The translations under genes were made by a program, and so were the position numbers. The notes below the pieces were generated by a model that worked only from the letters and a program-made list of their open reading frames with translations, was not told where the DNA came from and did no database searches. Below, piece by piece: positions 39,495 through 60,679 of a DNA stretch of 64,000 bases (its first letter is position 1; each line of letters begins with the position of its first letter). The stretch is from Daphnia pulex (Eukaryota > Arthropoda > Branchiopoda > Diplostraca > Daphniidae), in contig NC_060021.1 of NCBI RefSeq assembly GCF_021134715.1, forward strand, positions 11,006,501 through 11,070,500, read 5' to 3'.

Positions 39495-39989
39495 TTATCG
39501 GCCGTAGTTGTAGCCCAGCGGATAGGGAATCACTCCACCGTAGCCACCGTAACCATAGTAACCGCCATAGCCTGTAAGTAAAGGGTATCCCACTAGTACA
39601 GTTGCTCCGGCAAACGGGTAAAATCTTCGAGCAAGTGGCAATGCGTAACCTGGGCGAGTTCAATCATTTCCGTCATTTTATTCTTTAGTATGTTTGAAAA
39701 ATTCATCTTTACCGCCATAGCCGTAGCCAAACCCCTTGTAGATTTTCACCTTGGATTCACTGGGCTCCATGTCGAGGGCCGTTGAAGGATCGTCAATGCG
39801 TTGCTGGGCTAGTTCGCCAGCTGCTGCCGGAATGACGGCCAGCAACGACATCGAGACCAACAGCAGGAGGAGGACAGTCTGTTGAAACAATAATGGAGTT
39901 TCTGTGTTATACATGTAGTCAAAACTTTCCCTTTTAAAAATGATTTTCTCTTTTGCTTGTTTGAATCTTACCGGAACAAATAGCTTCAT
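39495..39989 (-). CDS. Secreted Gly/Tyr-rich peptide, family member A
   Basis: Three exons: 39989-39972 (six codons, MKLFVP), 39878-39713 and 39649-39495; 112 residues. A signal peptide (hydrophobic core TVLLLLLVSMSLLAVI, cleavage probably after AAAG) is followed by an acidic pro-region (RIDDPSTALDMEPSESKVK), a short basic stretch and, on its own exon after a phase-1 intron, a tail with YGGYYGYGGYGG and a final GYNYGR. It is the first of five minus-strand genes with the same plan. The acidic-to-lysine module LDMEPSESKVKIYK aligns with the modules of the other seven family members. Function unknown; cuticular, adhesive or antimicrobial roles are possible. Confidence 0.85.
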
Positions 39990-40010
39990 GTTTTTCTTTT
40001 AAGTGATATG

Positions 40011-40706
40011 CCGAAACACTATTCCGCAAGACGTGCTGAAACTGTAGACCTATATTAGTAATGTATCTAACAGATATTAAAAGTCGGTGTTAACTGAGGA
40101 CTTGACCGGTAGAGACTGTGAAATTTCGTTGGCTGTTATCGCCCAGCAGCTTTCTTTTCTCTTATAACTTTTTTGAATTTCGTGATGGAATGGTGAACGG
40201 AAAACAAAAGTCAGACACAAACGGGGTATATTACTTTTCCCGCTTTCTTCCTGGCCGGCCCAAAGCTGATGGATGGATTTGCGCAGAAAAGTTGTGCGTA
40301 ACAAACTTGTTACGAAGGGCGGATTCTATTAGTATGGAATTAAAAAACAATTACAAACGCCCATTTTGGTTGTTCTGAATCAGCCATCGGTCAATGAAAG
40401 GTTATGCATAACTGCTTGTCAAACATGGGTATAGTGTTACTGTTGTCTTGATGTTGTCATATGTTTCTATTCGCTGTGTCGCTATATTACTACTCCGTCT
40501 GTGTCTAGAAAATAAACTGCTGATCTGTAAAATCTTTGCTTCTGTGCATTCCCTGTCGAGAAAAGTGTCGCACATAGTATCTTTATCGGATAACATTTGT
40601 ATATTTGCGAATAGAACTTTAATGTACATGGATGGACGAATAATAATCATTCATAATACAATATAATAGAGTTATAGTACAATGCAATAGTTAGGAATTG
40701 AGAGAT
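40011..40706. other. Spacer between members A and B
   Basis: Upstream region of member A and 3' flank of member B. No TATA box of the kind seen for members C-I. Only short chance ORFs. Confidence 0.5.
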
Positions 40707-41266
40707 TTATCTTCGGTAACCAAATCCTCCTAATCCTCCGTACCCTAAACCTGTTCCGTATCCGTACCCTAATCCCGTGCCATATCCTAATCCAAGTCCC
40801 GTGCCATATCCACCTAATCCAGTTCCGAATCCGCCCAGTCCCAAATTTAATCCGTTCAATCCGCCCAGTCCGTACCCATACGTGAGTGGGTACCCAATAA
40901 GCGGGTACGATGGGTAACCGATCATCGGGAATCCAGGGTATCCACCGAAACTGTGGCCGTCGTCCTTTTTCTCCGTCTTTTTGTAGTACTTCTTTAGCCA
41001 ATGCTCCAACTTGTGTTCAATGACCTTTAGGCTGGACTCGCTGCCCTCCATATCGACAAATGCGGAATCATCGCTGGACTCAAGGCCAGCCGTGACGTCA
41101 TTCAGAACTGCGGATGCCTCTTCGATCGGCTGACTGGTACCAATCATCACCAAACTTAACAAAACAGTCTAATAAGACAAGACAAATTAAATTTCAACAG
41201 AACAATTACACTGGGGTTAACTGGAAGTAAAAATGTGAACCTTACCGTAACCAATAATGACTTCAT
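40707..41266 (-). CDS. Secreted Gly/Leu/Tyr-rich peptide, family member B
   Basis: Two exons: 41266-41246 (seven codons, MKSLLVT) and 41168-40707; 160 residues. Signal peptide (TVLLSLVMIGTS), acidic pro-region with FVDMEGSESSLK, then an amphipathic lysine-rich helix (IEHKLEHWLKKYYKK) nearly identical to that of member C. The tail is built of GYP and GLGGYGTGLG repeats ending GFGYRR. Unlike C and E, the cysteines of the lysine-rich loop are replaced (YYKKTEK). An initiator-like ATCAGTTGAAA lies about 70 bp upstream. No known enzyme or domain. Confidence 0.88.
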
Positions 41267-42081
41267 TCTCGAATTATTTGTGTGTCGTCGGGATCACAAT
41301 CTTGTGCGAGATGATGTACGCGAACGAGCTTGTTTCAACTGATATCTGAACTGGACATAGGTCGCCGACTGTATGCCGTTTTTCGTTTCACTTTCTGTGT
41401 GTGTAGAATCCAGTGAAGAAAAAAGGGACAGACTAAAAAAAAACGGCCAGGATGACGATACTGTTTTCCCTTTCCTTTGTTTGCCAAAGGGTGGACATGC
41501 GCAGATTAATGTAAAGCCAATGCCAGCCAGCCAGAACCTGTTCCTAATGGGCGGACGTAAATATACATATATAACGACATTTACGGAAAGGGAAACCAGT
41601 TCGTACCCAAAACGGGAAGCAGGTCAAGGCTTTGGAATGAAAAAATTCTTTGCTGCCACTGCGCCGAGGTCCTAAATAGTGTTCCATAGCTCTTACATCA
41701 CTTTTTTTGTATTACAAAGAAATCGCGCTTGTATAATGAATTCAATCCGAATTCAACGAACCCAAGCTATAGCAATAGCTAGAGTTTCGGCTGAATAAAT
41801 AGTAGTTTCATTCGGGATCTAAAGAGCTTTCTGCTTTCGACTCTTTCGTCGTCGGAAACTTTCTACTGGTGTACAAGGGCCATTTCGTACTTGAACGCGC
41901 TGTCATTCCTTATTTACACACATAACGTGAACAAGGTGTGCCTTTATTTGTAAAGTCGTCAAATGAAACATTTTGAAAGCCGGTGACACAAATTGAAGTC
42001 AAAAAAATGTATTAGCGTTGATCAAATGTACAAGTTGAGTTGGCACAAGAAATGTGTATAAGTTAATTAGTCGGGACATTT
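41267..42081. other. Spacer between members B and C
   Basis: Holds GCAGGTCAAGGC (41619-41630) and AACGACATTTACGG (41573-41586), both repeated upstream of other members. A TATATA stretch at 41566-41573 lies just before the second motif. No gene seen. Confidence 0.5.
41573..41630. promoter_or_regulatory. Shared upstream motifs of peptide genes (copy near B)
   Basis: AACGACATTTACGG (14 nt) recurs exactly at 44745-44758, and CAGGTCAAGGC recurs at 43052-43062 and 44935-44945. The second contains an AGGTCA nuclear-receptor half-site. Regulatory function is inferred from recurrence. Confidence 0.45.
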
Positions 42082-42738
42082 TCAATATCCGCCCAGTCCG
42101 TATCCGCCGAGCCCGTAGCCTGCGCCGTATAAAGGTGAGGCACCGTATAACCCGCCGTAAGACCCGTAAGACCCGTAAGACGATCCATAACCATAACCAT
42201 GGCCACCGCCATAAGATGACCCATAGCCACCGCCATAAGATGACCCATAGCCACCGAGATAAGGGGTAGGAGTATAGACTGGTGTATAAACAGGAACAGG
42301 AACAGGGACAGGACGGACACTATGTCCTCCGTATCCGTAACCTAAATTCAATTTGATAAATGATTAACTTTATTAAATAACCAGTAGTAATAATATTGAT
42401 TTGCGTCATTCGTACCAGTCGAGCCGCAACCTCCCTTTTTGTAGCATTTCTTCAACCAATGTTCCAATTTGTGCTCGATAATTTTCAAAGCTGATCCACT
42501 GGCCTCCATGGTCTCCTGGTCGGGATTAGCCTCAGCAACAGCTATGACGGATGCTTCGTCAACTGGAACAACAGCAGCCGGAGCAGCTGCTTCATCGACG
42601 GGCTGGCCAGCAGCGAAAGCCACTACACCAATAAGGGCGACCTGGGTTGTTGTTTTCAAAAGAATAAAAAACTTTTAAGCAGTTTTCTCCGTTTGAGATT
42701 CGACACTCAATGCGGATTATTACCAGAAGGAATTTCAT
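42082..42738 (-). CDS. Secreted Gly/Tyr/Ser-rich peptide with Cys loop, family member C
   Basis: Three exons: 42738-42724 (MKFLL), 42641-42416 and 42341-42082; 166 residues. Signal peptide (VALIGVVAFAAG), Ala/Val/acidic pro-region, module ETMEASGSALKIIEHK, then LEHWLKKCYKKGGCG, a cationic helix running into a C-x5-C loop. After a phase-1 intron the tail exon encodes a Pro/Val stretch (RPVPVPVPVYTPVYTP) and repeats of GGYGSSYGG and GYGSSYGSYG, ending GYGLGGY. The head is closest to member B; the cysteine loop matches member E (CYKKGEC). Strong TATA and initiator upstream. Cys loop plus cationic helix could be antimicrobial; the tail suggests a structural or adhesive polymer. Both are inference. 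Confidence 0.88.
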
Positions 42739-42789
42739 GTTGTGCGGATCACTTCACTTGAGATGTTGAATCTTGTAAGAGAGTCAGTG

Positions 42790-42831
42790 TTCACTGATGG
42801 TTTTCCTACTTCAGTCTCCGGTCTTTATATA
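42790..42831 (-). promoter_or_regulatory. Core promoter of member C
   Basis: TATATAAAG (minus, 42831-42823) lies about 30 bp before the initiator ATCAGTGAACA (near 42795), about 60 bp upstream of the start codon. Member D has the same initiator sequence. Confidence 0.75.
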
Positions 42832-43917
42832 CTGTGTTGTCGTTTTTTTCCCCTCCCTTGGCCAACACAGCAATAACAGGTATACGTTCTGAAGGTAACG
42901 TACTTGACGAACTGACGCAATCCGTTTTTTCCCTTTCGTTCATATTTTAAGTTGCCAAATATTTAAGAATATAGTATACATTTTTGGGAAAAAACCAGCT
43001 CTGCTGGTAAGTTGCCGCAAAGCAAATGGGATATCCTGTTTAAATCATAAACAGGTCAAGGCACACACTTCCTGACTTCCTGTTGCCGAAAGGCTACGTC
43101 AAAGATATGCAAAAAAGAGATACATCCGATTTCCCGATTATCTAAACACACCAACCCCGTGCTGGCTATTGATTTCTTTGTAGGAGATTATTTGACGCTG
43201 ACATTTATTTTTTTAATTCTATGACAAATTTAATCCGCCGAACGGATCCAATTTTCTTTGCGGATTATTTTAGAAATAAAAAACGCGGGACTTGATTGGT
43301 TATTTATAAATCAATTCATTGTGTTTGCGTGTATGCAATCACGCGCATTGGTCATTTGCAATAAAATCAGGTTAAGGCCGAATTGAAACTTGTTTCCGAA
43401 TCATTTTATCTGTAGGTCATCACTGTTAGAGACTCCTTGGAATTTATTATGCAAAATAAGGCGTTAAATATTCTTCGCGTCTTGCAACTTGCAATCTGTA
43501 TAATCGAGGCTAATTATGTTTTAATTTGATGTGTTGATCGCTGGTTGTCACGTTTGCAATCGCTATCTGAATTAAATGCCATATTTTCCCTTCCAGTTTA
43601 TCAAACGAATCTACACCGGTTTCATCGTCGTGCCAACACGTTGTCTTCGTAAAACTGGACGGAATTTAGAGGTGGTAAAACATTTTTGTCATGTCAAAAA
43701 CAAATTATGAAATGGAATTTGCATAACACATGGTGGAAATAAAAAAAGGGTTCATGAATAATGTATCTTGTTTTTTTTTTTTTTTAAATCCATCTTTTCC
43801 TGCTGATGGTAATCATTAAAAACACCAAAAGAGATTACAAAAATTGTATTTGGCTTTCAAGAGTTCACACACAAAATACAAATAATTAACAGATTAATTT
43901 AAGTTCGATTTCAGCGG
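42832..43917. other. Upstream region of member C
   Basis: Contains GGCCAACACAGCAATAACAGG-like sequence (42860-42880, resembled at 44705-44726), GAAGGTAACGTACTTG (42891-42906, resembled at 59585-59600) and AACAGGTCAAGGC (43050-43062). No gene seen. Confidence 0.5.
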
Positions 43918-44453
43918 TTACCTTCCATAACCGTAACCACCGAAACCACCTAATCCTCCATAGCCCAGTCCAAATCCTGGATAACCTCCTCCAAGACCAT
44001 ATCCACCTAATCCGCCAAGCCCTAATCCGAATCCTGGATATCCACCAAATCCTCCGTAGCCAGCACCGAACCCTGGATATCCATATCCGTATCCATGGCC
44101 GATCCCGTGATGTCCACCAAACCCGTGTCCACCGAAACCGTGTCCGCCTAAACCGTGTCCACCAAAACCGTGTCCACCGAATCCACCGTGATGACCTCCG
44201 AAATGTTTACCCAAACCGGATTCGCTGGCCATTAAATCCGAATCGATGGATTTCTCAATCGCAACTTTGTCATCCGGAATAGACGCAGCAGCAGCGGGAG
44301 CGACAGTTTCCGCAACGGGTTGGCTGGAAGCGAGGGCCGCTAACCCCAATAATACAAGCTAATAAAAATCAAACCGAATGCATCAAAGTTAGATTTAACG
44401 TTTTAACCACAATAAGTTCGATCAAAGCAGAATTTTACCAATAAAAACCTCAT
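43918..44453 (-). CDS. Secreted Gly/His-rich then Gly/Tyr-rich peptide, family member D
   Basis: Two exons: 44453-44439 (MRFLL) and 44358-43918; 151 residues. Signal peptide (LVLLGLAALASS), pro-region with an acidic stretch (KSIDSDLMASESGLGK), then a His/Gly block (GGHHGGFGGHGFGGHGLGG) followed by repeats of YPGFGLGYGG to the end (GYGYGR). His-rich repeats could bind metal ions; this is inference. It lacks the long cationic helix of B and C but keeps the short acidic module. TATA box and initiator are clear. Confidence 0.88.
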
Positions 44454-44519
44454 GGTGAAATGCTGTTGTTGTTGTAGAGATGAAATGATTCCGTATGCGC
44501 CTTGCCAGAAATTCTGTTG

Positions 44520-44558
44520 TTCACTGATGACAAACCGGTTGCGTCTATGGATTTTATA
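44520..44558 (-). promoter_or_regulatory. Core promoter of member D
   Basis: TATAAAAT (minus, about 44558-44551) with initiator ATCAGTGAACA about 30 bp downstream. Core spacing and initiator match member C. Confidence 0.75.
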
Positions 44559-45982
44559 CTAGGACTCGCCTCCTACATTCTTCCAGCAGCATCAAACGGG
44601 CTGTGGGAATTTTCAAGGTAGCGCTTAATATATAAGAAACGGACGATACCATCCCGCCCTCTCGTTCCCTGGCACCGTTCTCAAGGCAGGATTGCACCAC
44701 AACGTGGCCAGCAATAAACAACAGGCTTCAAAGGGTATATAAACAACGACATTTACGGTCATCCGTTATCGCTGCTGTGCCAACTCCCCAAAGACCTTGT
44801 CATAGGATTTGTTTTTTTGAAGTTCCTCGATGCCCTATCGAGGGTTAAACATCGAGGAATTGGTCAATGGTCATCCTTTTTCCGAAATATTCCGGAATTA
44901 CGACAGATCCGAAATCCGTGCGTGTATCGTGAAACAGGTCAAGGCTCTATACTGATGCCGACAATCTAACAAGTCTCCATCATCATTCAAAGTGTCTATA
45001 TAAGGCCTACCTACTTAGGTACAACTTTTTTTGTGAACATTCCGAAAGCAGTTTTTTCATAAGCCTAGCTTTGACTTGCCAATGCCAAGCGTTTCCCACA
45101 GGCACAAGCTATAACTTACAACTCAACTTACGCCAAAAATCTTAAAGCCTTCATTTCCCAATATGACGCAATTCTAAATTATCCATCACACATGTCGAAT
45201 TGACTGCAAGCAGATTAGGCCGACCATACAGTTATGTGAATAAATGTGTGATGGCTCACAAAAGGTTAATAATCGCCATGGATGAATAGCGTTAAACACT
45301 ATAAGGGAAAGGTGCTACTGCGACAAACGGAATGACAAGGTTATACATACGATCAGATAGTAGGTTAACCATTTCTTTTTTTCCCTAAATGTGATTGAGA
45401 CTATTTTTCCTGTTTCCTTTCTTTTTCATTTTAAATGGCAGATTGCCACTCTACTGTCCATCCATCCACATTCAAAGTAAAAGTTGGACACGTCACCAAC
45501 GTGACAAGTGGTCTCACAGATAAATATCGCTTCGAATTAAAATCCCGTTCTATGTGGCATCCGTTATCCACTCAATGATTTCATTTAAATGAAAACGTGA
45601 ATGCAACTTGTAACTCGGTCAGGCGTGCAATTAATGTTGTTGAGCAATTTGTATTTCTTGGCTGATTGCGTGGAAAAGGAAATGTTGAATCAATTCATCA
45701 AATCTGTAAAACACATGCTATCTATTGCTCTACTCGTGAAAAGCGGGAGACAAATATTTCTGAATGACAAAATTACGTAATTAAATATTTTAATATATGC
45801 TATAGACACTATGATAGAAAATTTTAAATATAAATGGTATTCATAATATCTTCGGGGCTGTTAAATTTTCGATCATTTCAATTATTTCGAAGTCTCACAT
45901 TTAGGGAAAGGAATCATAATTAAGGCCCGAATGAGCCACAAGTGTTGCAGAAAATGTAATTAATGGGGAAATTTTATGCCAA
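44559..45982. other. Upstream region of member D and 3' flank of E
   Basis: Carries a GGCCAGCAATAAACAACAGG block (44705-44724), plus-strand TATATAAA (44736-44743) followed by AACGACATTTACGG (44745-44758), an imperfect hairpin CCTCGATG...CATCGAGG (about 44826-44858), AACAGGTCAAGGC (44933-44945) and a second TATATAA near 44998. These could be remains of a duplicated promoter. No ORF is supported. Confidence 0.5.
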
Positions 45983-46939
45983 TTAACGTTTGGTCTTGGA
46001 TCCACCTTCTTTTCCGGACCCGCCTCCTTTGCCAGATCCGCTTCCTTCCGACCCGCCTCCTTTGCTGGATGCACTTCCTTTGCCAGATCCGCTTCCTTTA
46101 CTGGATGAGCCTCCGCTCTCGCCTTTGTATGATCCGGAACCACCGGAACTACTACCACTTTCATCCGATCCACCGCCTTCGCCGCTTGATCCGCCGCCCG
46201 ATCCACTTGATCCGCGGTATCCTCCATGACCGTATCCACTTCGTCCTTTGCCCTTTCCTTTACTTTTGATTACGTAGATTTTACCTTTCGATCCTCCCCC
46301 ATAGCCTCCCCCTCCATCATCTCCATATCCATCTCCCCCTTTACCTTTGCTTTTCGTTACACCTCCTCCCCCATAGCCCCCATCCCCATCCCCTCCTTTA
46401 CCTTTACCTTTGCTCTTCGTTGAACCTCCATAGCCCCCTCCTCCTCCATAGCCTCCCCCTCCATCGTCATCACCCCCATAGCCCCCTCCTCCTCCTTTAC
46501 CCTTACCTTTACCTTTGCTCTTCGACGTTGAACCCCCATAGTCTCCTCCTCCACCGTAACTGTCATATCCGTGACTTTCGTAACGATCTAAAATGACAAA
46601 ATGAAACGCAATTTGATTGGAAAGTAACAAATCCGTTATTTAAAAATAATTTCCATACCATTACGGCATTCGCCTTTTTTGTAGCATTTGGCAATCCACT
46701 TGTATTTAAAGTACTTTAAGATGAACTGTTCAGCTTTCATGTCGACCATGGGATCATATAATCGGACGGTGACGCTGGGGTCGGTGTCTGAAGAAACGTC
46801 GACGAAAGATTGGCCAACAGCTACCGTTAACACTGAGCCCAACAGGGCGGCAGCCTGTGGACAATCAAATCGTTTCCAGAATTTCCGATAGGAAATCGAA
46901 AAAATCAAAATTAAATCTTACCAGTAAACCGAGCTTCAT
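45983..46939 (-). CDS. Secreted Gly/Ser/Lys-rich peptide with Cys loop, family member E
   Basis: Three exons: 46939-46922 (MKLGLL), 46854-46659 and 46587-45983; 272 residues, the longest member. Signal peptide (AAALLGSVLTVAVG), acidic pro-region (VDVSSDTDPS), module VDMKAEQFILKYFKYK, then WIAKCYKKGECRNG with the same C-x5-C loop as member C. After a phase-1 intron the tail consists of GGYGG blocks alternating with KSKGKGKG blocks, then Ser/Gly/Lys repeats (GSGKGGGSGKEGGSKTKR). It is very basic overall. TATA box upstream. Likely extracellular matrix, adhesive or cuticle-associated; no known domain. Confidence 0.88.
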
Positions 46940-46989
46940 GGTGAGTGAAGGAACTGTGCTGGTGCTCCGCTTAGTGAGCCAGCTTATTT

Positions 46990-47032
46990 GTCAACTGATA
47001 ACTGGAACGGCTGTGTCGATGTTCTTTATATA
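46990..47032 (-). promoter_or_regulatory. Core promoter of member E
   Basis: TATATAAAG (minus, 47032-47024) and initiator ATCAGTTGACA near 46995. The initiator resembles ATCAGTTGAAA of member B. Confidence 0.7.
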
Positions 47033-47149
47033 ATCTCTGCCCTTTTCTTTTCACTTTCGTTGAGGTGTACGCGACACTGTCACCATTCTTGTTTTCTTTT
47101 CGCCTCTGCAAATGTAGTCCAGCAACTTCAAATAGACTCCATTCAACTA

Positions 47150-49513
47150 GGGTAAAACAACGAATTCCGGACAGCATCTTGGATACGCGAATGCCGGACG
47201 AAAAAGCCGACTTTTTCAATTTATAATTATAAATAAACGACGAAATTATATAAAAAACTAATGAATGAACTTTAAAATATGGCGAGGAATACACAATTGA
47301 GCCAAAGGGCATGTAGAAATACGCCCAATTAATCAAAAAATCATGAATTGAAGTTTCAGAATTTTTTTGTACGGCCTCTAATTTCGTCTGTGTGTTATCA
47401 CCTAGTGAAAACTTTTTCCTCGTAAGGAATTTCTAAGGTAATAACGAAAACAATCCCTTAACTAATTATATCAAATGATAGAGAATTGAAAGCTCTACAA
47501 TATTATATAAGGTTGCATCGTTATTTTTAAGAATTTCCCCAAATATCAGTGAAAATAGAAAACCTGGCCGAAATGCGAATGTCGGACAGCTGACGCGAAT
47601 TCCGGACAGAAAATTTCGAAAATAATTGACTTTCTTTGTTTTCACATGTCTGTACATCAATCGACGCAGAATTGAGAGACGCATCGATTGGTGTACAATG
47701 TTTACATCTTTTGTTGCGTATTTTTTTAATTATTTCAAAAACAAGATTCGATTGACAGAGGATCGAATCTGGATCGATCCAAAAATGTTGTCATCATTAT
47801 TTTGCTTTTTTCATTCCACTTTTTACCAGTATATGTAAAAGGAATATAATTTTAGTCACTTTTGTGAAAAAAAAAGAAAAAAAAACGAGCGATAAGTTTG
47901 TTAACGACTGGCATACCTAAAAATGTTGTATCTTATGTCCGGATTTTTGTTTTTTCGTAAAATAGTTCAATTTTACGATTTTTTAATTAATTGGTGTGCA
48001 TGTAACCCTAATTAGAGCTATTTTATCAAAAAAGCGTTTTAACACCGTAAAAAACCTAAATTTTTAAATCCATTTTTATCTCCCATAACGGCCCATGATG
48101 CGAATTCCGGACAGATGGCGTCTGTCTGCTAATGACTAGATCTTTGTAGAATTCTTAATATGTTGTATGGTGGCTTTGTGGATGAATGCAAGCACACGAA
48201 TTCACTGGTGTGCGGTTCAAGTCTCATAACAAACAAATTTCTTAAATACTCTCAAAAACATCCGGAACAACTTCTTGATTTAAATCTTTTTTCTTTAGAT
48301 TTACTTATCAACTACTGTTAAAATTAGCTAGGTACAGTGGGCGACTGTAACCGATGTCGACTTTGCGACGCATACATCCATGAGAGCTGCTTTCCAAGAG
48401 CAATTCTTTTGTCAAAATTTGGCATTTCAAGTTACTGCTGCCCATACTGTACTGAAATGACTATTGCGTACGTCTCATATATTTTTTTTTCTTATTCGGT
48501 ATTTAAACTAATTTTTTTAATTGTATTTAAAGTAATAGGGACAATCTTGAAGCTGCTCGTCTAGTTTTCTAAATTGCTCGTTTTCTAATAAAAAGTCAGA
48601 TTATCTAAAATAAATTATTCTTTTTCAAATAAATATTAGCCGTCGTTAATTCATGACATTCATTAAAAGTTGTTCGCAGAAAAAGATAGCGTTTGTTATT
48701 ATTCCATTAAAGGTTTTTCTTTACCTCAAAAATATTTTCCAAACACTGGGACCGAACTTCAACACTTGCCAATTTCTAATTCGTATTACTGGGTTCTACC
48801 AATGAGCCATTTAACCTTATTAAAATTGTTGTGGAACGTTAATTGTGCTGTTGTTTTCGTCTGCTGTCCGGAATTCGCATCAAGGGCTTAAAGGGGAAAG
48901 AAAAGTCATTAATTAGACGGAGTATATAACGCCATACCACTTTTATGCATCTAGACTAAAAGAGGACGTTATTCTTAATCTGTCAATACCCATTTTTCTT
49001 GAAAAAGATTAAATTTGAATTTTATTTTTATTATTCAAATTTTGGTAGTTTTCGGACATTCGCGTCATGTCTGACCGACTTTATATTCGAATTTCTCGAG
49101 AATCCCAACGAGGATTTCAATATGGTTTTTTGTTTTTGAATTATAGACTTCTTTACTTTAGTGAAATATAATTAACTAAAGTAAATATCGAAAAATAGTT
49201 TTTATGTTCTTAACTCGTTTTGAACCCAAGTCGAAAAGCTTGAGCAGACGAAAACAGTTTTTGACAGCTCAATGTTTTGATTTTTTTAATCAAAATATCT
49301 TAAAATACTTCCATTGCACTGTATAACATGTCTTGAGCAATTTTGTTAAGAATTAAAAACTGCATCGATTGATATAATTAGTTTTTTAAAATATTTCCGT
49401 CCGGAATTCGAAAAAATGTCCGGGGCATTCGCGTTTTGTCCGGAAATTCGCATTTTGGGTTTACACACAAACGCCGTAAGTCGGATCGCTGTCCGGCATT
49501 CGCTGTTTTACCC
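47150..49513. mobile_element. 2364-bp pogo-like DNA transposon with subterminal repeat arrays (defective)
   Basis: Terminal inverted repeats of 26 bp (47150-47175 and 49488-49513; two mismatches; consensus begins GGGTAAAACARCGAATKCCG) are flanked by TA on both sides (47148-47149, 49514-49515). The repeat motif GCGAATTCCGGACA is scattered inside: forward at 47187, 47575, 47595 and 48100, reverse at 48864, 49051, 49399, 49417 and 49437, so orientation flips near the middle. The only protein trace is a PHD-like zinc finger at 48337-48459. TA duplication plus a PHD finger fits pogo/Tigger-type transposases of the Tc1/mariner superfamily, but no DDE domain was found. Confidence 0.82.
48337..48459 (+). 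pseudogene. PHD-finger remnant of a transposase
   Basis: The frame encodes C-x2-C-x2-C, then H-x2-C (AYIHESCF) and finally CCPYC about 20 residues later, the spacing of the second half of a PHD finger. Such fingers occur at the C-terminus of some pogo-like transposases. A possible 3' splice site (TTAGCTAG|GTACAG) lies just upstream. No neighbouring catalytic domain is left. Confidence 0.45.
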
Positions 49514-49515
49514 TA

Positions 49516-51124
49516 TTTTTAGAAGGATTTCGTTTAAAACTGGCATATCAAAGTAAACAAAAAAATTTTAGGGACATAAGCTGTGTCGTGCATAAGAGCA
49601 ACAGCGTTACGGTAAATAAAATAAAGTGATGAAGCATCTAGTGATTAAGGGAAGTATCATCGATTATTGACATTCTGAATGTGATGAAAACAATTGGGTC
49701 AGGGCCAAAGGTAAACGGAGAGAAAATTGAAAGCATAAAACTTAACTTTCAATGTAACGAAGGCGATGAAAATTTTAAAAAGATCTCATTCTTTATTGTT
49801 ATTATTTCCAGAATTCACACTAGCTATCCACTGCTGTTTTGTTTATCAGTTTACGTAAAGTTAAAAACAAATTGGCATGTTCTCTTTTGCAGGAATAAGT
49901 CAAAAATAAAAATAATTCCAATAAATATTCTAAAACAAATTTGTCACAATTTATTTATTATTTAACTTACTTCTTTTTATTTTTGCAGTAAATAATTTTA
50001 GCAATTTAGAACAATTTGCAACGTTGCTGTTTATGCAAATCTGTAGAGCACATTTTTAGTACTTCTCCCGCCATTATAGGCCGAGCTGCCGTTGCTTGAT
50101 GTAGTGTCGTCGTCGACGAGATGTTTATGGTGAAGTAGTGAAACAAGTCAGACTGTTCAGACAAACAATTTAAGTCTTAAGACATTTGTGCAAAATACAT
50201 TAGGGTGAGACATTTTCTTCCCTGGATGTGGACAATACGTTGATCACCAATTCATCACAGAGACGCCTGGAACATGAAAAAGAATCGTCTTAAAGTAGTA
50301 AGTCGTCCATGTTTCTTTTTACCACGTCTGTGCTAGTGAAACTGGATCTCTGTAAGGTTTGGCGAACTTGTCTTTTGAAGAAATGTAAATGTTTTGCTAA
50401 AATTTGACTGTCTAAAAATGGACGACGCTTTGAAAAGCCTGTATAGAAATTAGAAATCGTCGAAGGTCAATCAGATATTGTGTCGACCACGTTTTCCCGG
50501 ATTTGACGATGTAAAACCGGCTGTGTCATTGTCAATTCTCCATCGGATTTAAGGTTTTTTTGTGTGACAGGACCCCCAATAGGCATTTTTACACTCGGTA
50601 AACAGATTAACAGATTCATGTGAAAATTTCTACATTTTAATTTGAACGAGGGTTGAAGCTCATAATCTTTGCATACTTATTTTTCATTTCCCAGTTGACT
50701 GGAAAACAAAAATTTGAATTTAACAAATCAATTTTAATTGTATTTTGTGTGGGTTTCAACATCACATTTGCCCTTGTCCCCTTTCATTATTTTTTTACGC
50801 CGAGATCTATTTTTCTGAGAAAAAGTTGTAGAAGATTCTGAAAACCTGTTAGGTAACCTCGGGGCAGGGCTTATTGCGGGAATTGATTTAACGTGCCCGG
50901 GAGAATGATTTCCTCCGTGAAAGTTATTCATTTTTTTTTTAAATAATACCACCATCTTGAAGAAAAAAAAAATACAGCTCAGCCTCTTATTGCCGTGAGC
51001 AAAATTATGTTATCGATTGCTGCAGCAGAATTTGTATTGCCGGCCTTACTACATAATCTAGAACTTTTTTTTTGGGGGGGGGGGGATTGGCTTTAATGTA
51101 AGATAACATGGATTGCGTCTTCGT
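49516..51124. other. Spacer and 3' flank of the aminopeptidase
   Basis: AT-rich, no supported gene. A minus-strand ATTAAA (51097-51092) lies about 30 bp after the aminopeptidase stop and may be its poly(A) signal. A poly(G) run of about 13 sits at 51073-51085. Confidence 0.5.
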
Positions 51125-54100
51125 TTACTGGTGGCGAATGACTTTGGAAATTGTCTTGGCTGGTTGATTGCCGGCCAGCCAAGTGCCAATTTCGCCCAGG
51201 TTCAGCGAAACCCATTGGATGTTTGATTCCACGGTCTGGATTCCTTGTTTGACACTGTTGGAATTGCCCAAGATGACTGAATGAGCGTCCCTCAGTTGAA
51301 TAAGCTGAAAAGAAACGGAAAAAAAATGTGTCAGTGATTTCAACTGTCGTCAAATTTTGTTCCATACTTTATCAAGCCCAGCTTGAGTGTTTTGACGAGT
51401 GCAGACGTAGCGATACCAGGTAGCGAAGTAAACGGAACCCAATCTGTAAAAATCAGATTTTTTTTAAATCGTCGTAACTCAATTCAAATCCAGTATACTT
51501 ACGCATTTTGAATGTCGTCCCATCGATTGATCAAGAAATCTAGAGCAATCTCGTTTCCGATTGGGTTGTTTGCTACGTTGTTGAAGACCGTGTTGACATC
51601 CGACCTCAAGATGCCCGAATTGGGATCCAGCAACATTTCGAGCAACCTGTATTATTTTTTAAATTTGAATTGTTTGATCGATCCTGTTGATTTTTTTTCA
51701 TTTTCTTTTTACCCAGAGAGTACAGTGGCTTGCTTACTGGCACACATGGCCACAAGGAAGCTGGTGTCTTCCTTTGTTTTGTACTGGTTGAAAGCAAAAT
51801 CGTATTCGGTCTGGCCGCCATACTCGATGGCCGTCCGCAGGATCGTTGACTTTTCGTTGGGTGAAACGATTCTTTAAATTCAAAATTTTTGTCAGCACCA
51901 TTATAATCAGTTCATAGACTAATTGATTGAGAATTTACTGGGCGAGATTGTCGGGTTGGCTCATCAAGTTAGCGTATGTGCTCAGGGAATTTTGGACGCA
52001 ATCAGCCACTCCCAATCTGCAGGCCCAGTTCATGGCATCGATGCGGCAATACTTTGTCAGGTGAGGATCAGACTGAGTCTCTTGGAACCCGATGAAATTG
52101 TAGTAGGGCTCGACCAGGCTTGTCATGTGAGTCTGCGCATCAGCGATCGTTTTTTTAAATAGGGAAAAACATGTTTGAATATTGATTATGCGATTATACC
52201 TTCCAGTTGGAGAACTCGGCAAAGTTATAGAGCATAATGTCGACGTAGTTGAGTTCGGAAAGAACTGCGTGCCATGGGACGTACTCTCGTTCGTATTTCA
52301 GGTACAAAGTGAGATCGAGTGCATCAGCGTATGGAATCAGTTCGGTCAAAGCCAAGTTGAAAGCATCGTCTAGAAGTTGAGCTCTGTTGTTGGCGGAGAC
52401 GCGTTGGTGGTCGGCTATGAGCTGGTCACGGATCAAACCGTAGTTGGTAGCATCGTAAGCCACTCGGTAATAGTCTGCGTTCGTGCGAAATTGCATTGAA
52501 ATATGTATAAAAGATGCGGGGAATTAAAAACTTAATTTGTTTGTTTTGAACTAACTCTGTTGATCGACGTTGAAGATGACCCATTGGTTGGCGGCAGCTC
52601 CTAGATTGGGTAATGACTTACTGATTTCATCGACAGAGAGCCAGTCTCTTTGCTTTGTCTGAGTGTAGTCGCTGGTGTACGTTAGAGGGACCCACCATTG
52701 ATAGACGGTCGGATCGGTGGTGTCATTGCTCTTCCGCAGCAGGAACCGGTTCTGTCAAAACGGGATTGAAATTTCTTTGATTGTTTCAGGGTCTTTGACT
52801 TTTCCCATCTCTCTCCCCTTCTAATGCTAATTAAGGCAGCGTATTATCTATCCCATTAAATCAAACCTGAATCACGACAGCGCCGCCCGTTTGGTAGTTG
52901 CGGATCACAGTTACATATGGGAAGCCCATTTTGAAGGTCCAAGTGTCCATGATCTCCTTGACCGTCGCAGGGAGGATCACATTTTCTGAATCCGCCTGAG
53001 TTTGAAGGGCAGCCCACAGGTTGTCTTGACCTGCATTGCCATATGCACTGTTGCAATCACAGTCGATTATTTGAAGCGATCATGAATCAGCATTTTGTCA
53101 ATAGAAACATTTACTTGTCGTTGAGATAACGTGTCAATCCCCGCTGGAACGTTTCCAGTCCGATTATATCTGCGCACATTCTAATGACGCAAGAGCCTGT
53201 AACATTTTTAAAAAATATTGTTCAATCCACTTGGTGTAAACGCATTTATTGATGTTTCGACAAAACCTTTTTCGTAGGAGATGGCGTCAAACATCGAGTT
53301 GATTTCGGCAGGTGTGTTAACTTCGATGTTGATGGGTCGAGATGTTTCCAGAGCGTCAATACCGAACACGTATTGTAAATTTTCAATGATAAACTGGTCG
53401 TTCATTTTAAAGTCAGGCTCCACCTATATGGCATACGTGAGATTGACGAAAAGATTGTTGCATAAACAGTCCAAGACAAAATCCCCGCCAGAGTCGAAGC
53501 CGACAGATTTCTCCTGATTAAATAGTATGTCATAAAAAAGCGTCTCATTTTTTGGCATTCAAGTTTTCCCCCCGACGCGACTACGTGATTATTCGCTCTT
53601 GTCCGTTGCAGAAGCCATTTGAATAGAAATTTCCAATTTTCAATCAACTTTCTTTTGTTCCTGCCAAGATTATAATCTTGAATATTGACTCTTTTTTGGA
53701 CTTCGTTTCTTCATTAGAAACTGTCTCAGCAGCTAGAGAACTTGTTTCATTTGACTATTAATTAATCACGTTCGATGAGCTCTTTTTTTGGCAACGTAAG
53801 AGATGACTTTCACTCGTCGACTGATGCAATTTAGAGCAGCTAAATGACATCTACATATGTATCATGCTAAGCATAGTTTTGGACGAGTGATCGGGGCTAA
53901 TTGATTTTTTTTAAATGGATTAATTTTATTACCGCATCAGTTCCGATGTACTCCATGTATGATGCGAATCCTTCGTTTAACCAAAGAGCGTTCCACCTAA
54001 TACCAATGGTCATTTAATCAAAGAAAACCACACTTGAATAAAAGACAAAATTACCAGTCCATTGTTACGAGATTTCCAAACCACTGATGGGCCAGCTCAT

Positions 54101-55750
54101 GAGCACTCACCACTGCGGCCAGTTGGACTGCACGGGCAGTGGCCGTACTGGGATCGATAAGCAGATATTGCTCTCTAAAAAAACGGCCGTCACATTAAAT
54201 CTTGTTTAAAATTTTGGCTATAATTTGAATCGCGGATACCTGTAGGTGATCAATCCCCAATTTTCCATGGCTCCTGTTTTTTTTTTGTTTGTTTTTTGTT
54301 TTTTATTTTAATAGGAATTCATTTAAAAAAAAATGTCTTATTTAATAATGTTGAATACTGTACAGACCTGCAGCAAAGTCTGGAATAGCAGCCATGTCTT
54401 GCTTTGGCAATGGATAGTCGATGTTGTAATAACTCTCGAAAAACTCCAAAATCCGGGGCCCAATGTTTCGTGCGTAACTGTAGATATAGTTAGAGTTAGC
54501 GTTATTTGTACATATCGGTAGGATCATCATAAATCAAGATAGAAAGTCGTTATTCCTACTCGGTGAGGTTGCGGGCATCCGGTCGGGCCCAAATGCTGAA
54601 TTCCACGTTGCTGAGTCCTGGTTCTGCTGGGATACCAATGAATTCCGACACCATAAACGCCACAAGGTACGACGACATGGTCACCGATGTCTGATAATTG
54701 TCCCAAACGAATCCAGGCATTCCAACGCTAATCCAATTTATTTTTCATTCAAAACGGAGAAGAAATCGACAGGAAGTTAGTCGACAGTCAGTAACTTTTT
54801 CCTTATTTTGTTACGTGTAATTCTTTTTATTGAGATCTCACATGGGTTCTGTTGTGATGAGCGGCATGTTGCTGACGGAAGTCCACGTCTCTTTGCGACC
54901 AACCGTGACAGTGAAATTGGCCTTCATTGTGGGCTCGTCGAAGCAGGGGAAGGAGCGGCGAGCGTCCGTTGCCTCAAATTGAGTCACGGCTAGATACCTT
55001 TCCAATGATTTAGCGCAAAGTCAATAAAATAAATATCTCGTTTCATCTTATGGAGCGTAAATAAATACTTGGTCTCGCCGTTTTCGACGTAAGATGATCG
55101 ATAAAATCCAGCCAATAAAGCGTTTAAAATCGAAATGAATTTCATGGTGATTTTGTACTGTTTGCCGGCAGTCAATGGCCGGGAGACTTGAACCGTGATG
55201 ATTTCGCGAGTCGATTGCTCATCGATGAAATCGACAACGGAAATGGGATTGCCGGTCTGCTCCTCCGTCACCTATATTTATAGCGGGGGTAAATCGTTTA
55301 ACCAGTTTTTCGTTTTCTGATTTATTTTGTGTGTCATACTGTTATGGAAGCCGGGTCGATGGTGAGATCTAGACTGTTCATGGAAATGTTGACGGTCGAG
55401 ATGATGCAGTCAAGAAATATTTCCACGTATCCGTCGGTGGTCCAGTTGCCAACCTCGATGAAGGGCAGAAGACGGACATTATATAAGCGGGGTAAGACGT
55501 CGCCCGGTAGCCGTAGATCCTCGCCTTGTCTTGGCTGAGCTTGAATATTTTTCGGGTATTTGTGACGGTAAATGTGGGCCTTTTGGGAAGGAGTGTACCA
55601 CCAGCGGCTTACTCCGTCTACCGGATCGGGAACGACTGCCGGCTCCAATAGCCTCAATTCGACCTCATCAGGGCCATCGAATTGCGTTTGGATGTTGCCA
55701 AAGGCCGAGGCGACCGCGATCAGAACAAGGAAGGGCAGCAAGTTCCTCAT
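51125..55750 (-). CDS. Secreted M1 zinc metallo-aminopeptidase (aminopeptidase N family)
   Basis: Eighteen exons, from 55750-55340, 55271-55069, 54997-54842, 54727-54560, 54477-54368, 54273-54240, 54174-54055, 53996-53933, 53423-53267, 53196-53115, 53047-52867, 52751-52556, 52474-52200, 52132-51939, 51871-51713, 51646-51503 and 51444-51369 to 51304-51125. They join in phase to 969 residues. Signal peptide ([16 protein letters not shown]); exopeptidase motif GAMENWG at 350-356; HELAH (386-390) with the third zinc ligand Glu409 in NEGF; catalytic Tyr472 in ISYEKG; a C-terminal ERAP1_C-like helical domain. It removes N-terminal residues from peptides. There is no GPI-anchor signal or transmembrane segment, so it should be soluble and secreted, unlike most arthropod gut APNs. 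An upstream in-frame ATG at 55771 would spoil the signal peptide. Confidence 0.96.
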
Positions 55751-57359
55751 TTCTTTATATCGATTCGGCAATTATTATTTCATTAATTATTCAAATGTAA
55801 TATTTACTTGACTTACTTGAAATCCTACTTGAACTGAGTTACTCCAACTTCGTCAATCGAGTGATCGTACAAATTGAAATTGAAACACAAAACCCAACGC
55901 CATTTATCATTATTTGAACGAGATTATTTTGAGCATCCAAGTGTGCATTCGTTTGCCCATCCGGGTCATTTGTAATGATATAACCATCACCTGTCGAGAT
56001 TGTTATTGTTCCCTTTGACCAAATATTTTTTTTTATTTTTACACAAGTACAGACTTGTCGATGTGATAAAGTATTTCGAGCTCAACGAACAACAACAAAT
56101 TAATCCATGCATGTGCTTATTTTTTTAAAAGCGGTTTTAACCTGATTCTGCGTCGAAACTACATTTTTACTTATTGTCTCGTTGCTCCGTCCAAATCATT
56201 TCCAGATTATTGAAGTGTGTATGTTAGTGAGATGATTTTTTTTTAAATAATAAAAACGAGAATCCAATTTTGGTCACTTTCCAGTGAAACCTGAGAAAGG
56301 TGAAGGACAACCATCGGACTTGTATATCTCGCATCTGCGTTGTTCAGATTCTAGTTGCTTCTTCATTTTCTTATTGTTACGGTCGAATAAACACAACTCG
56401 CACGGCGAGAAGGGACTCTAATAATTTTAAACCATCCTTTTTCGAAGTTGTTGTTGTTGTTGGTCGCTTCTTAGAATAGGAAAGGCTCACCGAGGTCCTT
56501 CACCTCCCCCCTAGAACGAAAGAGAATAACAACAACCTTCCCTATGCATACACTTTGTATGCCCATAGCTTAACTTGTTATGAACGCCGAAATGCCGCCT
56601 CTCCGGATGGAGACGGCCGACGGCTATGACCTCGGTCTAGCCCATACATGGACTTGTAGAATGAAGATACGGTTGGTTATTATTTGTCTTTCAAGGTCGT
56701 GTTGAGCCTACCTGAAATGTGCCATTGTTTGGAAAGACTTTAAAAGCTAGTGTGTATACACGGTTCGTGTGCACCGGTGTTAAATGCCAACTATCCCTTT
56801 CTTTGTTGTGGGCCTTTTTATTTTTTTTTTTCACTCTCTCTTTCGGTTTCTTGTCGAAATTTGTTCGAAAATTGAGTGCCTGTTGTCTGAAGGCCTTTTT
56901 TCAGAGTTTTATTGCTGGTCGTAAAAAAGCAAAAGATGTTAAATAGATATATGTATAACTCTCCGTTGGGATTGGAGTTGACCCACTGTTAGCGCAGCGA
57001 TATTGATTTCATATGTCAAATGAGGCAACAGTTGTAATTATTCACGTTTTGAAAAATTTATATTTCATTCAGAAGAGCTAGGGTTTAACATACAGAACGA
57101 TTAATTGAGCGAAATGAGGGAAAAGGTGACACTTGACCACAGAAAAGTATCGTATGATATGAAACTGTTTCGTTCAACGGAGCATATAGAGAAACATTGG
57201 GAAGTCAAAAGGGAGTGAGGTATAGTCAGATAACGGCACAGCGTGATCCAACGTATAACAAACAAAAAAAAACACAATCGAGTCGTCGTTCATCAGTCAA
57301 CAGGAATTGGGTAATAACATCATGCACATACTGCGTGTCAAGTAGCTATTCCAAAGTTC
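55751..57359. other. Upstream of aminopeptidase; no gene seen
   Basis: AT-rich. The stretch 56376-56710 begins TGTTACGG and has sequence texture like a solo LTR, but no matching end and target duplication were found. A (GTT)n run lies at 56449-56463. ORFs are short. Confidence 0.4.
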
Positions 57360-57803
57360 TTATTTTCGACCGTAGGAATAGTCGGGTGCCTTCTCTTTCT
57401 TGGGTTTGCCGTAAGAGGACTTTGGAGCTTTTGGGGCCTTGGCTTTAGGGGCACCGTAGGCGGCTTTAGGTGCTTTGGGAGCCTTGGCTTTTGGAGCACC
57501 GTAGGATGCTTTGGGGGCCTTTGGTGCTTTGGCTTTAGGTGAGCCGTACGACGATTTTGGGGCTTTAGCTTTGCCGTAACTCTTGGCGAACAATTCGGCC
57601 GTATCCAAATCGTCGACGATGGCTCCCGTTTCGCCTTTTTCGCCCTCCAACGGAACGGAATGAACCATCACGATGGCCATAAAGAGTGCGATCAACTGTG
57701 CAATAAATGAAACAAATCAAATCAAACAGATGTTATAAGTGGGCCGGGGTGAAGAATAGATTGACCGAAAGTTGAGAGAAAGACTTACCATGAGGAGCTT
57801 CAT
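57360..57803 (-). CDS. Secreted Ala/Pro/Lys-repeat peptide, family member G
   Basis: Two exons: 57803-57789 (MKLLM) and 57695-57360; 116 residues. Signal peptide (LIALFMAIVMVHS), short acidic pro-region (GAIVDDLDTAELFAKSYGK) whose DLDTAELF matches the module of the other members, then about four repeats of SYGAPKAKAPKAPK and a basic end (YSYGRK). The tail is highly cationic and Tyr-containing, resembling arthropod or mussel adhesive and cuticle repeats in composition only. TATA box upstream. Confidence 0.87.
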
Positions 57804-57866
57804 TTTGTGGTAGTACTCACTAGAATGTTAAACAGGAAAGTGTGTGCATTTGAGGAGAATCGGCCC

Positions 57867-57874
57867 GTTTTTAT
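57867..57874 (-). promoter_or_regulatory. TATA box of member G
   Basis: TATAAAAA on the minus strand about 65 bp upstream of the start codon. Confidence 0.6.
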
Positions 57875-59058
57875 ACGGTAGATGTGCCTGCAGGGCGGGC
57901 TTGAAGAAGACGAAAAGCGAGTTTCAATAGTAGCATTTGTCTTCCCTTTCTTTCTCCTTTTCTCCGCCCGCCTCTTCGCCTATCCATTGGCTTTAGAGGT
58001 ACGTGCATAGTGGAGTAAGATGCGGTTGTTGCGCTCCGGATACCGCTGCTGCGCCAGCACGACCCAGCGATGGATGGCGGTCCGTCTTATCCTTCAGTAA
58101 TGCAAGTGGCCTATAGCTACACAACCCAAATAATAATGCTGCTGGGCCAAGTAGGAAAAACGGTCCCTCAAAAAAGTTGGGAGGAATGCTGAACTGATGG
58201 GTAATTTCCGATAATAAATAGCGCCAGCAATATATAGGAAGATTACCTGTCGGCCTTGAACTAATTGTTTTTTTCAAGAGTCTCATGTGAAAGCAAAAGT
58301 TTCGTCACTTGATATACCTAAACAGCAGAAATAGCTATGCTAAATATTTGTGTTGAGATGGTTTCCTCGTTTGATGTCAGTTAGCTTGAAACCGGCCCAT
58401 CTATCGAAAGCTGAATCTTAAGTTATGCATTGTCGTCGTCGGGTTTTTTTTGTGTCCTTCTGTTGTCGTAGATTGCTGTGGCGTCATGTGTAACAGACAA
58501 GACTTCTGGTTCGATCCGTTTCACATCGAAAGAAAGAAAAAAAGGGCTCGCCGAGTTCCTTGTTTGAATAGACATATTTTTCTTGGAAACTTTCACTGCG
58601 TTTGAGAGCTGCCAACATTTCCTGTTGGGAAATTGGAAAGCTCGCGCGTTTCACGCATATTGGCCATCTGCTTTGCCTAATTTCTCTGCGGATTTCTCTC
58701 TAAACTTCATCAACTTGCCGCAACTGTTGTCCTCTCCACAAAACAAATAGCTTGGCCACAACAGATGAGGCCTTCCTTTTCTTCGTCAATTGTTTGGCAT
58801 AGCATCGGAGAAAATGACGTGAACAATGTTTGCTTTTATTTTCAAAGAAAACTTGTATTTAAAAAATCGTGAAAAAAGGAAATACCGTAAAACGTATTGC
58901 GCGTAACAAGTTATTTAATGATTGACAGGTGAAAAGAAGGATGCCTTTGTAGAGAAAGCTCGATGTGTGTGTGTATGTTTTTTTTTGTTTGGTTAAGCTC
59001 TGCATGTCTGTTTCCATTCACTGGAAAAAAACTTGAGTTCCAGATAAACAAAGTCTGG
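57875..59058. other. Spacer between members G and H
   Basis: No gene supported. A T-loop-like GGTTCGATCC at about 58510 has no surrounding tRNA fold. Confidence 0.5.
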
Positions 59059-59415
59059 TTAACCCTTGTGGAACTTTTTGTGGTAAACTGGAACTGGATG
59101 GTAGACGGGACGTGGATGGTAAACAGGGACCGGATGATAAACTGGAACTGGGTGATGTTGCACCCTATGGACTGGATAGGCGTGGTGCTTGGAATGTTTC
59201 TTGTACTTTTTCAAAAAGTGTTCGTCTCCGACAAGATCGTGCTGGCCATCGCCGTCGACCGCTTCAGTTTCCGTCGGATTGGCCAACGTAACGGCAACCA
59301 AGACCGCCAGAAGAGCAGCGAGAATCTTTAACATTGAAAATAATTGAAAATTGTCATTTTCATTTTTTAAAACACATTTTTTAACATTTAAGTGACTTAC
59401 CATCAGTAGCTTCAT
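59059..59415 (-). CDS. Secreted His/Pro/Val/Tyr-repeat peptide, family member H
   Basis: Two exons: 59415-59401 (MKLLM) and 59325-59059; 93 residues. Signal peptide (ILAALLAVLVAVTLA), acidic pro-region (TETEAVDGDGQHDLVGDEHF), lysine-rich LKKYKKHSKHH, then repeats of HPVPVYHP ending HKKFHKG. It is a close paralogue of member I, which lies 0.95 kb away in the opposite orientation. Repeats of the type PVxVYH recall cuticle and eggshell peptides; His suggests metal binding. Function unknown. Confidence 0.9.
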   Translation of the reverse strand: MKLLMVSHLNVKKCVLKNENDNFQLFSMLKILAALLAVLVAVTLANPTETEAVDGDGQHDLVGDEHFLKKYKKHSKHHAYPVHRVQHHPVPVYHPVPVYHPRPVYHPVPVYHKKFHKG

Positions 59416-59499
59416 GATGTTGTAGAGAAATGTAGACTGTGGTGGTAACGCTGGGATACTCCAGGCAGGATTGTGATGATTACTGCCATGTTCTGCTGC

Positions 59500-59509
59500 C
59501 TTTTATATA
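59500..59509 (-). promoter_or_regulatory. TATA box of member H
   Basis: TATATAAAAG on the minus strand, about 90 bp upstream of the start codon, with a GCAGT initiator-like site about 25 bp downstream. AAGGTAACGTGCTTG at 59586-59600 resembles a site upstream of member C. Confidence 0.65.
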
Positions 59510-60360
59510 CAGCCAGCACAACTATTAGCCATCTAGTTGGTGACGATGATTTTTACGCAACTCGCATTGGCTGTGTCGATACTAAAAGGTAACGTGCTTG
59601 TTGAGGCGTAGCAAGGTAACAATGAGTTCCGCCTTCTTATCCCAAATATATCTCAACGTCCATGCCACCTAACCTTGAGACGCATCTCGTTCAGGTAAAT
59701 TTGAAAGCCATGAGCAGTCGGCATTTTTGTGTTCAAGGGAAACAACGACGATGTAGTCTAGGCTGTTGGGAAATTGCAACACCAGCATGCACGATTTTCA
59801 TTTTATTTTAAGAGAAAAAAAATGTCGCACTAATCCCTTCAGCCCCTAATGGGTAGCGTTCAGACAACCGGCCTTGTTTTGATGCCATAAAACTCAATAA
59901 AACTCAAAAGGTCAATCCCATATTATTCGCGCCGTCGTGTCAAGTTTTGTAGGAAATACGTTTCAAAATAGGAAATACGTAATACATGTGTGCCCGAGGA
60001 AAGTGAATGTCTTGGCATTGAAAACCCTATCAAAGCGTGTCGTTGGGTATTTCAAATAGTTCGGATTTTGAGACGGAAGCAAGGGTTACCTGGGAGAATC
60101 GTTGAACTTACCCAACATTTTGTCTTTCAGCCTTTTTGTCAAGGTCGTTTTGATGGCCATCGGAAGCTTCCCGAACGCAAGGCTGAGCTACAAAAAACGC
60201 AAAATCATCGTGAGCTGCGAGAAGCTCGAAACAAATTATGTAATGGTAACACACGGGAGGTGGGTCTTGCTGTATATATAGAGGTGGTCATCAGGTTGAT
60301 ATTCATTCCAATATTGTCCAAGATCTTGTAACGTAGACAGTTCTTTCGTTCTTACGCAAA
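59510..60360. other. Shared divergent promoter region of members H and I
   Basis: About 0.75 kb between the two TATA boxes (59500 minus, 60273 plus). No ORF is supported by splice sites or motifs. A divergent pair of paralogues probably arose by inverted duplication and may share control elements. Confidence 0.5.
60273..60281 (+). promoter_or_regulatory. TATA box of member I
   Basis: TATATATAG followed about 12 bp later by initiator-like ATCAGG; about 80 bp upstream of the start codon. Confidence 0.6.
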
Positions 60361-60679
60361 ATGAAGCTCGTGATGGTAAGTCGCTGATGTTTTAAACTTT
60401 AAAGGCATTTTGATCACTTTTGATATCTCTTCTTGTGTCAAGATTCTTGTTGCTCTTGTGATGGTCTGGGCGACCGTCTCTTTGGCTAATCCAATGGAAG
60501 CTGAGGTGGGCGAGGCGGTTGGTGGTGAAATCCACGATCTGGCCGGAGACGAACACTTCTTGAAGAAATATTACAAACATCGTTCCTATCACCCAGTTCC
60601 GGTCTACCGTCCAGTTTATCATCCACCCCCTGTGTACTATCCAGTTCCTGTTTACCACAAAAAATATCACAAGGGTTAA
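60361..60679 (+). CDS. Secreted His/Pro/Val/Tyr-repeat peptide, family member I
   Basis: Two exons: 60361-60375 (MKLVM) and 60443-60679; 83 residues. Signal peptide (ILVALVMVWATVSLA), acidic pro-region, module HDLAGDEHFLKKYYKH (nearly identical to member H), then repeats around YHPVPVYRPVYHPP and the end HKKYHKG. A poly(A) signal AATAAA lies at 60849. It is the only plus-strand member of the cluster and is divergent from H. Confidence 0.9.

Follow-up and report, generated by a model that had tools for sequence, protein, structure and literature searches.

A family of small, probably secreted proteins of Daphnia pulex with a shared head and diverging low-complexity tails

By analyzing a 64,000-nucleotide (nt) stretch of the Daphnia pulex genome (contig NC_060021.1, positions 11,006,501 to 11,070,500; hereafter the window), we found that eight small genes clustered between positions 39495 and 60679 of the window (G1 to G8) encode proteins that share an N-terminal part, the head, followed by low-complexity tails. 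Judging from head comparisons, the heads are homologous in ten genes, and the family is now made of these ten: the eight of the window and two found elsewhere in the genome (G9 and G10). The explanation that we favor, with moderate confidence, is that they form one small family of secreted proteins, probably matrix-forming and of cuticle type, in which the head stays constant and the tail evolves fast. Secretion, with the cuticle or another extracellular matrix as destination, is what we infer from the features of the predicted proteins.

Gene models and shared heads

An earlier note on this DNA, made by reading the sequence, had proposed an eight-gene family with one shared head module and interchangeable tails. 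By rebuilding the gene models, we found that all eight genes are real (8/8), with clean two- or three-exon structures; the eight start codons given in the note were all right and its outer limits, 39495 and 60679, agree with our models. On the minus strand are G1 (exons 39972-39989, 39713-39878 and 39495-39649; 112 amino acids (aa); Gly/Tyr tail), G2 (41246-41266 and 40707-41168; 160 aa; GLGYGTG-type tail), G3 (42724-42738, 42416-42641 and 42082-42341; 166 aa; PVPVPVPVY, then a GYGSSYGG-type tail), G4 (44439-44453 and 43918-44358; 151 aa; GGHGF/GYPGF-type tail), G5 (46922-46939, 46659-46854 and 45983-46587; 272 aa; tail units GGGYGG, KGKGKG and GSGK), G6 (57789-57803 and 57360-57695; 116 aa; KAPKAxYG-type tail) and G7 (59401-59415 and 59059-59325; 93 aa; PVPVYH-type tail), and on the plus strand is G8 (60361-60375 and 60443-60679; 83 aa; PVPVYR/PVPVYH-type tail). 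Protein length thus ranges from 83 to 272 aa. In G1-G8, the first coding exon is only 15-21 nt long (5-7 codons), encoding MK (MR in G4) plus 3-5 residues, and is followed by a GT-AG, phase-0 intron located inside the signal-like stretch. This combination of a short first coding exon and a phase-0 intron is found in 10/10 members. Exon 2 carries the remainder of the signal-like stretch, the acidic stretch and the Lys-bearing module. In G1, G3, G5 and G9, a second intron, in phase 1, is placed at the junction of head and tail or close to it; head and tail are on one exon in G2, G4 and G6-G8.

As previously described, each of the eight genes encodes a signal-like stretch, which we judged by eye, followed by an acidic stretch and then a Lys-bearing module, both with hand-set boundaries, and every motif quoted in the note was found in its gene. 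The net charge of the acidic stretch is -4 to -9 in G1-G8 (-3 to -9 across all ten heads) and that of the Lys module +1 to +5 in all ten. The short consensus drawn earlier from the motifs overlooks a longer helix-like stretch in G2, G3 and G9 as well as the C-x5-C pair that closes the module in G3, G5 and G9. LKxIxHKLxHWLKK[CY]YKK is common to G2 (head module at 40977..41057, minus strand, VDMEGSESSLKVIEHKLEHWLKKYYKK), G3 (head module at 42426..42515, minus strand, ETMEASGSALKIIEHKLEHWLKKCYKKGGC, with the C-x5-C) and G9, and the hydrophobic moment of this stretch was equalled by 2.3-3.8% of shuffles. Such a moment was seen in only 3/7 tested heads, and we rejected it as a trait of all of them. 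For the G3 head exon, an AlphaFold model built with an alignment of 9/10 heads places a helix at residues 47-68, with a block predicted local distance difference test (pLDDT) value of 80-82 in its core, and the rest of the model is of low confidence (mean 61, predicted template modeling score (pTM) 0.30). Both Cys of C-x5-C are kept in the heads of G3, G5 and G9 (exons 42416-42641, 46659-46854 and L036:7424-7621) yet are jointly lost in G2 (exon 40707-41168), which hints that the pair may form a disulfide.

Comparing the mature heads of G1-G8 two by two, we observed that the score of 13 of the 28 pairs was reached by at most 5/1000 shuffle pairs (values uncorrected for multiple testing), where about 0.14 such pairs were expected, and that each of the eight genes belongs to at least one of these 13 pairs. 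The remaining 15/28 were not above shuffle level. The background for the ranks was 264 kb, with 5,432 frames no shorter than 30 aa. With leave-one-out profiles (ten heads, 5,423 frames), G3, G5, G7, G8, G9 and G10 came first, G1 and G2 second and G4 third, that is 9/10 heads within the top 3, and shuffles of a head's own letters equalled its leave-one-out score 0/500 times for nine heads and 1/500 for G6. The earlier note had named the absence of mutual hits above chance between the heads as evidence that would speak against it; both the pair shuffles and the leave-one-out profiles returned such hits.

The two further members were found by whole-genome translated searches with single heads as queries. 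These started with a seeded first pass and may therefore overlook weak members. G9, at about C5:11,727.3-11,727.7 kb (head exon L036:7424-7621) and 0.66 Mb from the window, matched G3 (1.6e-12), G2 (1.7e-11), G5 (0.0017) and G4 (0.10) in turn; G10, at about C2:11,690.7-11,691.1 kb on another contig, was matched directly by G6 (8.9e-6). G8 also matched G7 (1.1e-8). The previous statement that ordinary search would not link the genes holds for G1 only, whose head matched nothing but itself in the genome; a plain translated search joins G2 with G3 and G7 with G8, and reaches G5 and, weakly, G4 via G9. Matches at C10:10883080 (E 5.7), C5:4819834 (E 0.39) and C7:3044146 (E 0.19) were too weak to be accepted as members. 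Scanning the 264 kb for further small secreted low-complexity genes returned G4, G6 and G10 only, which says little because the filter missed 7/10 known members.

On head and promoter features, the family is divided into two subfamilies, A (G1-G5 and G9), with an initiator motif, and B (G6-G8 and G10), with a short module. A profile of the B heads ranked the A heads at 2 (G2), 9 (G4), 20 (G3), 36 (G9), 380 (G1) and 488 (G5) against 5,422 background frames (rank test, p = 2e-5), with 0, 2, 5, 11, 23 and 44 per 1000 shuffles reaching these scores, respectively. Conversely, the A profile ranked G10, G8, G7 and G6 at 3, 13, 64 and 2,495 of 5,422 (rank test, p = 0.004), their scores being reached by 1, 2, 1 and 137 per 1000 shuffles. 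Common head ancestry appears strongly supported for G1-G5 together with G9, for the pair G7-G8 and for the pair G6-G10. The joining of these three groups, in which G1, G5 and G6 rank low (380, 488 and 2,495), has moderate support, which is also how far the single ancestral head of the earlier note can be followed. TCAGT is a frequent arthropod initiator, and we found TCAGT[TG] within 130 nt before the ATG of 6/6 A genes versus 7.7% of 5,000 control stretches. A TATA box lies 33-36 nt before the initiator A in 4/6 A genes (not in G1 and G2); the 4/4 B genes have a TATA box (the nearest at -72 to -94) and no TCAGT[TG] initiator. The motif speaks for genuine transcription units and for the A genes being related, but not for any special function.

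Tail repeats and the aminopeptidase duplication

The A tails are Gly/Tyr-rich, with PVPVY in addition in G3, GGHGF in G4 and GGGYGG, KGKGK and GSGK in G5; the B tails carry PVPVYH in G7/G8 and KAPKA in G6/G10, and Tyr is present in the low-complexity tail of 9/10 members. When similarity beyond composition was scored against 300 shuffles, we obtained z values of 11.9 for G7-G8, 5.0 for G2-G4, 5.0 for G6-G10 and 3.7 for G3-G4 within subfamilies. Across subfamilies, the likeness was confined to the PVPVY block (7.1 for G3-G7 and 5.2 for G3-G8). The tails are not all unrelated, contrary to the earlier claim, with likeness beyond composition within G7-G8, G6-G10 and G2-G4 and between the PVPVY of G3 and that of G7/G8. 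Freely interchangeable tails were rejected as stated, tail likeness mostly tracking the head subfamily, and we found no support for tails being replaced or swapped, since only the PVPVY block (G3 versus G7 and G8) crosses subfamilies.

Repeated re-expansion of the tails, also suggested in the note, was borne out. All 13 tandem-repeat rows in the 38-64 kb interval fall within tail coding sequence (hand-set tail edges, 3-base tolerance) and have periods that are multiples of 3. Some of these rows overlap, so that they represent 10 separate places, and the tails occupy 2,006 of the 26,001 bases of this interval. No tandem array was reported in the G1 and G8 tails. Together, these data support tails that grow by in-frame tandem expansion.

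An aminopeptidase N-like gene (51128..55750, limits approximate, minus strand), two exon frames of which carry the M1 and ERAP1_C domains, sits between G5 and G6; it lies outside the head family and serves as a clock. A second aminopeptidase N-like gene adjoins G9 (C5:11,727-11,733 kb; L036, L037), and the order and orientation of G9 and this copy match those of the window cluster and its aminopeptidase. When the first exon of the window's aminopeptidase was compared with the genome, 17 matches were obtained, of which the G9-side copy is the closest, with 77% over almost the full exon; the others are at 34-61%, except for a C7 match at 72% but over 43 residues. Eight of these 17 matches lie within 60 kb at C4:384,107-443,378, a larger aminopeptidase cluster. 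The aminopeptidase pair is 83% identical over 875 codons from 14 hand-picked exon-frame pairs, with a synonymous divergence (dS) of 1.17 (0.97-1.47). Given that the dS of the G3/G9 head exon matches this value (1.13; 0.62-2.32, 978/1000 resamples defined, 61 codons), the data are consistent with one block duplication having carried a head gene together with the aminopeptidase. The ratio of nonsynonymous to synonymous divergence (dN/dS) is 0.08 for the aminopeptidase and 0.24 (0.10-0.46) for the G3/G9 head, and no likeness beyond composition is left between the tails of G3 (89 aa) and G9 (26 aa) (z 0.9). As estimated from this pair, the head is under purifying selection while the tail diverged fast.

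Weighing the explanations

Several observations weigh against one family of matrix proteins. G6 ranks 51/5,423 in the leave-one-out test, and the leave-one-out E-values of G1 (5.2), G4 (1.7) and G6 (53) are weak; for these three heads, it is therefore the rank and not the E-value that carries the argument. Moreover, the A profile places G6 at 2,495/5,422, with 137/1000 shuffles reaching its score, and because of these poor ranks its membership rests on G10 and G8. The TCAGT[TG] motif was selected after inspection and occurs in 0/4 B genes within 130 nt before the ATG, G5-G8 have no helix-like moment, and Pfam detected no known cuticle domain in the ten full proteins. Finally, synonymous sites come close to saturation at a dS above 1, and only 61 codons could be compared in the G3/G9 head. 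The dating is approximate owing to this saturation and because G3 and G9 may not be strict counterparts.

Alternatively, the region could be shared by separate families, either two or three (A; G7/G8; G6/G10), acidic-then-Lys heads being common in small secreted proteins. This alternative deserves attention but is in our view the less probable one: between the subfamilies, matches are weak (the best full E-value is 0.54, B profile on G2), G6 falls to rank 2,495 under the A profile, the A initiator motif is missing from all four B genes and G10 is on a different contig, whereas both rank tests (p 2e-5 and 0.004), the shuffles (at most 5/1000 matching G2, G3 and G4 with the B profile and G7, G8 and G10 with the A profile), the G2-G8, G3-G8 and G5-G8 pair scores, the short first exon and phase-0 intron common to all and the PVPVY tails of both G3 and G7/G8 speak for a single origin. 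That unrelated secreted low-complexity genes look alike by chance or composition is hardly credible. The motif is short and 15/28 pairs are not significant, but the genome matches, the leave-one-out ranks, selection on the G3/G9 head and the A initiator motif contradict it, and inside each of the groups A, G7/G8 and G6/G10 it is refuted. The main functional rival suggested by the predicted proteins is a defense role, in which the acidic pro-part would mask a cationic amphipathic helix that is later released, with Gly-/His-rich tails that are maybe active. We regard it as unlikely. The order of signal, acidic stretch and cationic helix, with moments reached by few shuffles (2.3-3.8%), speaks for it in G2, G3 and G9, and the C-x5-C after the helix of G3 and G9 recalls frog-skin peptides; however, G5-G8 lack the helix-like moment, no Pfam peptide family was matched at cut-off, and long tails that keep expanding in frame are needless for a released helix.

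If the ten genes do form one family of matrix proteins, an epithelium that secretes matrix would most likely export them. Pairing of the acidic stretch with the Lys module, within or between chains, could hold the tails apart and keep the chain soluble in the secretory path, and this pairing would then direct assembly and aid docking in the matrix; there, the Tyr, His and Lys residues of the tails might be cross-linked. Short units expanding and contracting in tandem, always in frame, would rebuild the tail, with the head held by purifying selection. That polymers of varied chemistry follow a constant head with a processing role, as proposed earlier, is plausible. That the head is an assembly and targeting cassette kept across arthropods, the low-complexity secreted clusters of arthropod genomes then each being a single family with overlooked heads, is a more doubtful extension; if true, tail chemistry would be free to evolve, since the head does export and docking.

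The cluster illustrates how the tails of secreted proteins may diversify, and why the kinship of such proteins escapes notice. The duplicated aminopeptidase provides an internal clock that separates head and tail rates, and head-only profiles together with intron phase offer a practical way of regrouping orphan low-complexity secreted genes.

Surroundings of the cluster and comparison with known families

The gene to the left of G1 (37870-39303, plus strand) is presumably of JmjC type, by its look on reading only; Pfam gave nothing for 38460-38924 and a below-cut-off match to MHC2-interact for 37870-38250. Elsewhere in the window, a 1220-aa open frame (318-3980, minus strand) has a reverse transcriptase domain (Pfam RVT_1, E 1.2e-26) and a 798-aa open frame (14035-16431, minus strand) has C2H2 zinc fingers. 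YYTEAPKYYTE-type repeats, which look disrupted because they are scattered among several frames, flank the window on both sides and are also found near the duplicated G9/aminopeptidase block (L029:6214-7021 and L031:4250-4800, plus strand; L038:2300-3300, minus strand).

None of the eight full proteins G1-G8 matched a Pfam model at its cut-off, and G9 and G10 had no Pfam match at E up to 10. The CPR chitin-binding RR domain was absent among the Pfam matches of the ten full proteins at E up to 10, and no Pfam family matched more than one of the nine head exons (best E 0.034). We set aside sub-cut-off Pfam matches as composition or signal-peptide noise, among them SteA-like_C on G7 (E 0.0057) and, on G6, both Mucin-like and Nucleoporin_FG (E 0.01). 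We also rejected a single NCBIfam match (E 0.053, in 1/9 head exons) and the 11 sequences that a PDB profile search gave at E 0.059-0.84, nine being ACE/ACE2 chains matched at the first ~40 residues. In the literature searched, which left out most subscription papers, we found no account of this head family.

A conserved front with a fast-changing remainder is known for vertebrate SCPP genes, frog-skin peptide precursors and spider silks. The present family is front-constant as well, but here the cationic module sits in the conserved part.

In a review of insect cuticular proteins, CPCFC proteins are defined by a repeated C-x5-C motif (PMC12426002). The motif is common to both, repeated in CPCFC and present here as one copy in 3/10 genes (G3, G5 and G9), and membership in CPCFC was rejected on this ground. 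The same text describes CPG proteins as having GXGX or GGXG repeats and as known from Lepidoptera, and the CPLC subfamilies (CPLCG, CPLCA, CPLCP and CPLCW) as each defined by its own conserved region (PMC12426002). Compared by description, CPLC and CPG proteins are low-complexity and secreted like the present family. GGXG is readable in all six A tails and absent from the B tails, and therefore only A fits the CPG repeat description.

The nearest published description that we found is that of low-complexity secreted clusters in Drosophila, where clustered signal-bearing Gly-/Pro-rich proteins without Pfam domains are reported to align poorly (PMC2932725). Clustering, signal, Gly/Pro-richness and the lack of a Pfam domain are common to both sets. 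The survey of cuticle motifs calls the origin of the clusters a puzzle, with no recognizable homology among members (PMC2932725). In contrast, the kinship of the present family emerges from head-only comparison, which would provide a worked answer to that puzzle in one crustacean: duplication, a kept head and in-frame turnover of the tail repeats.

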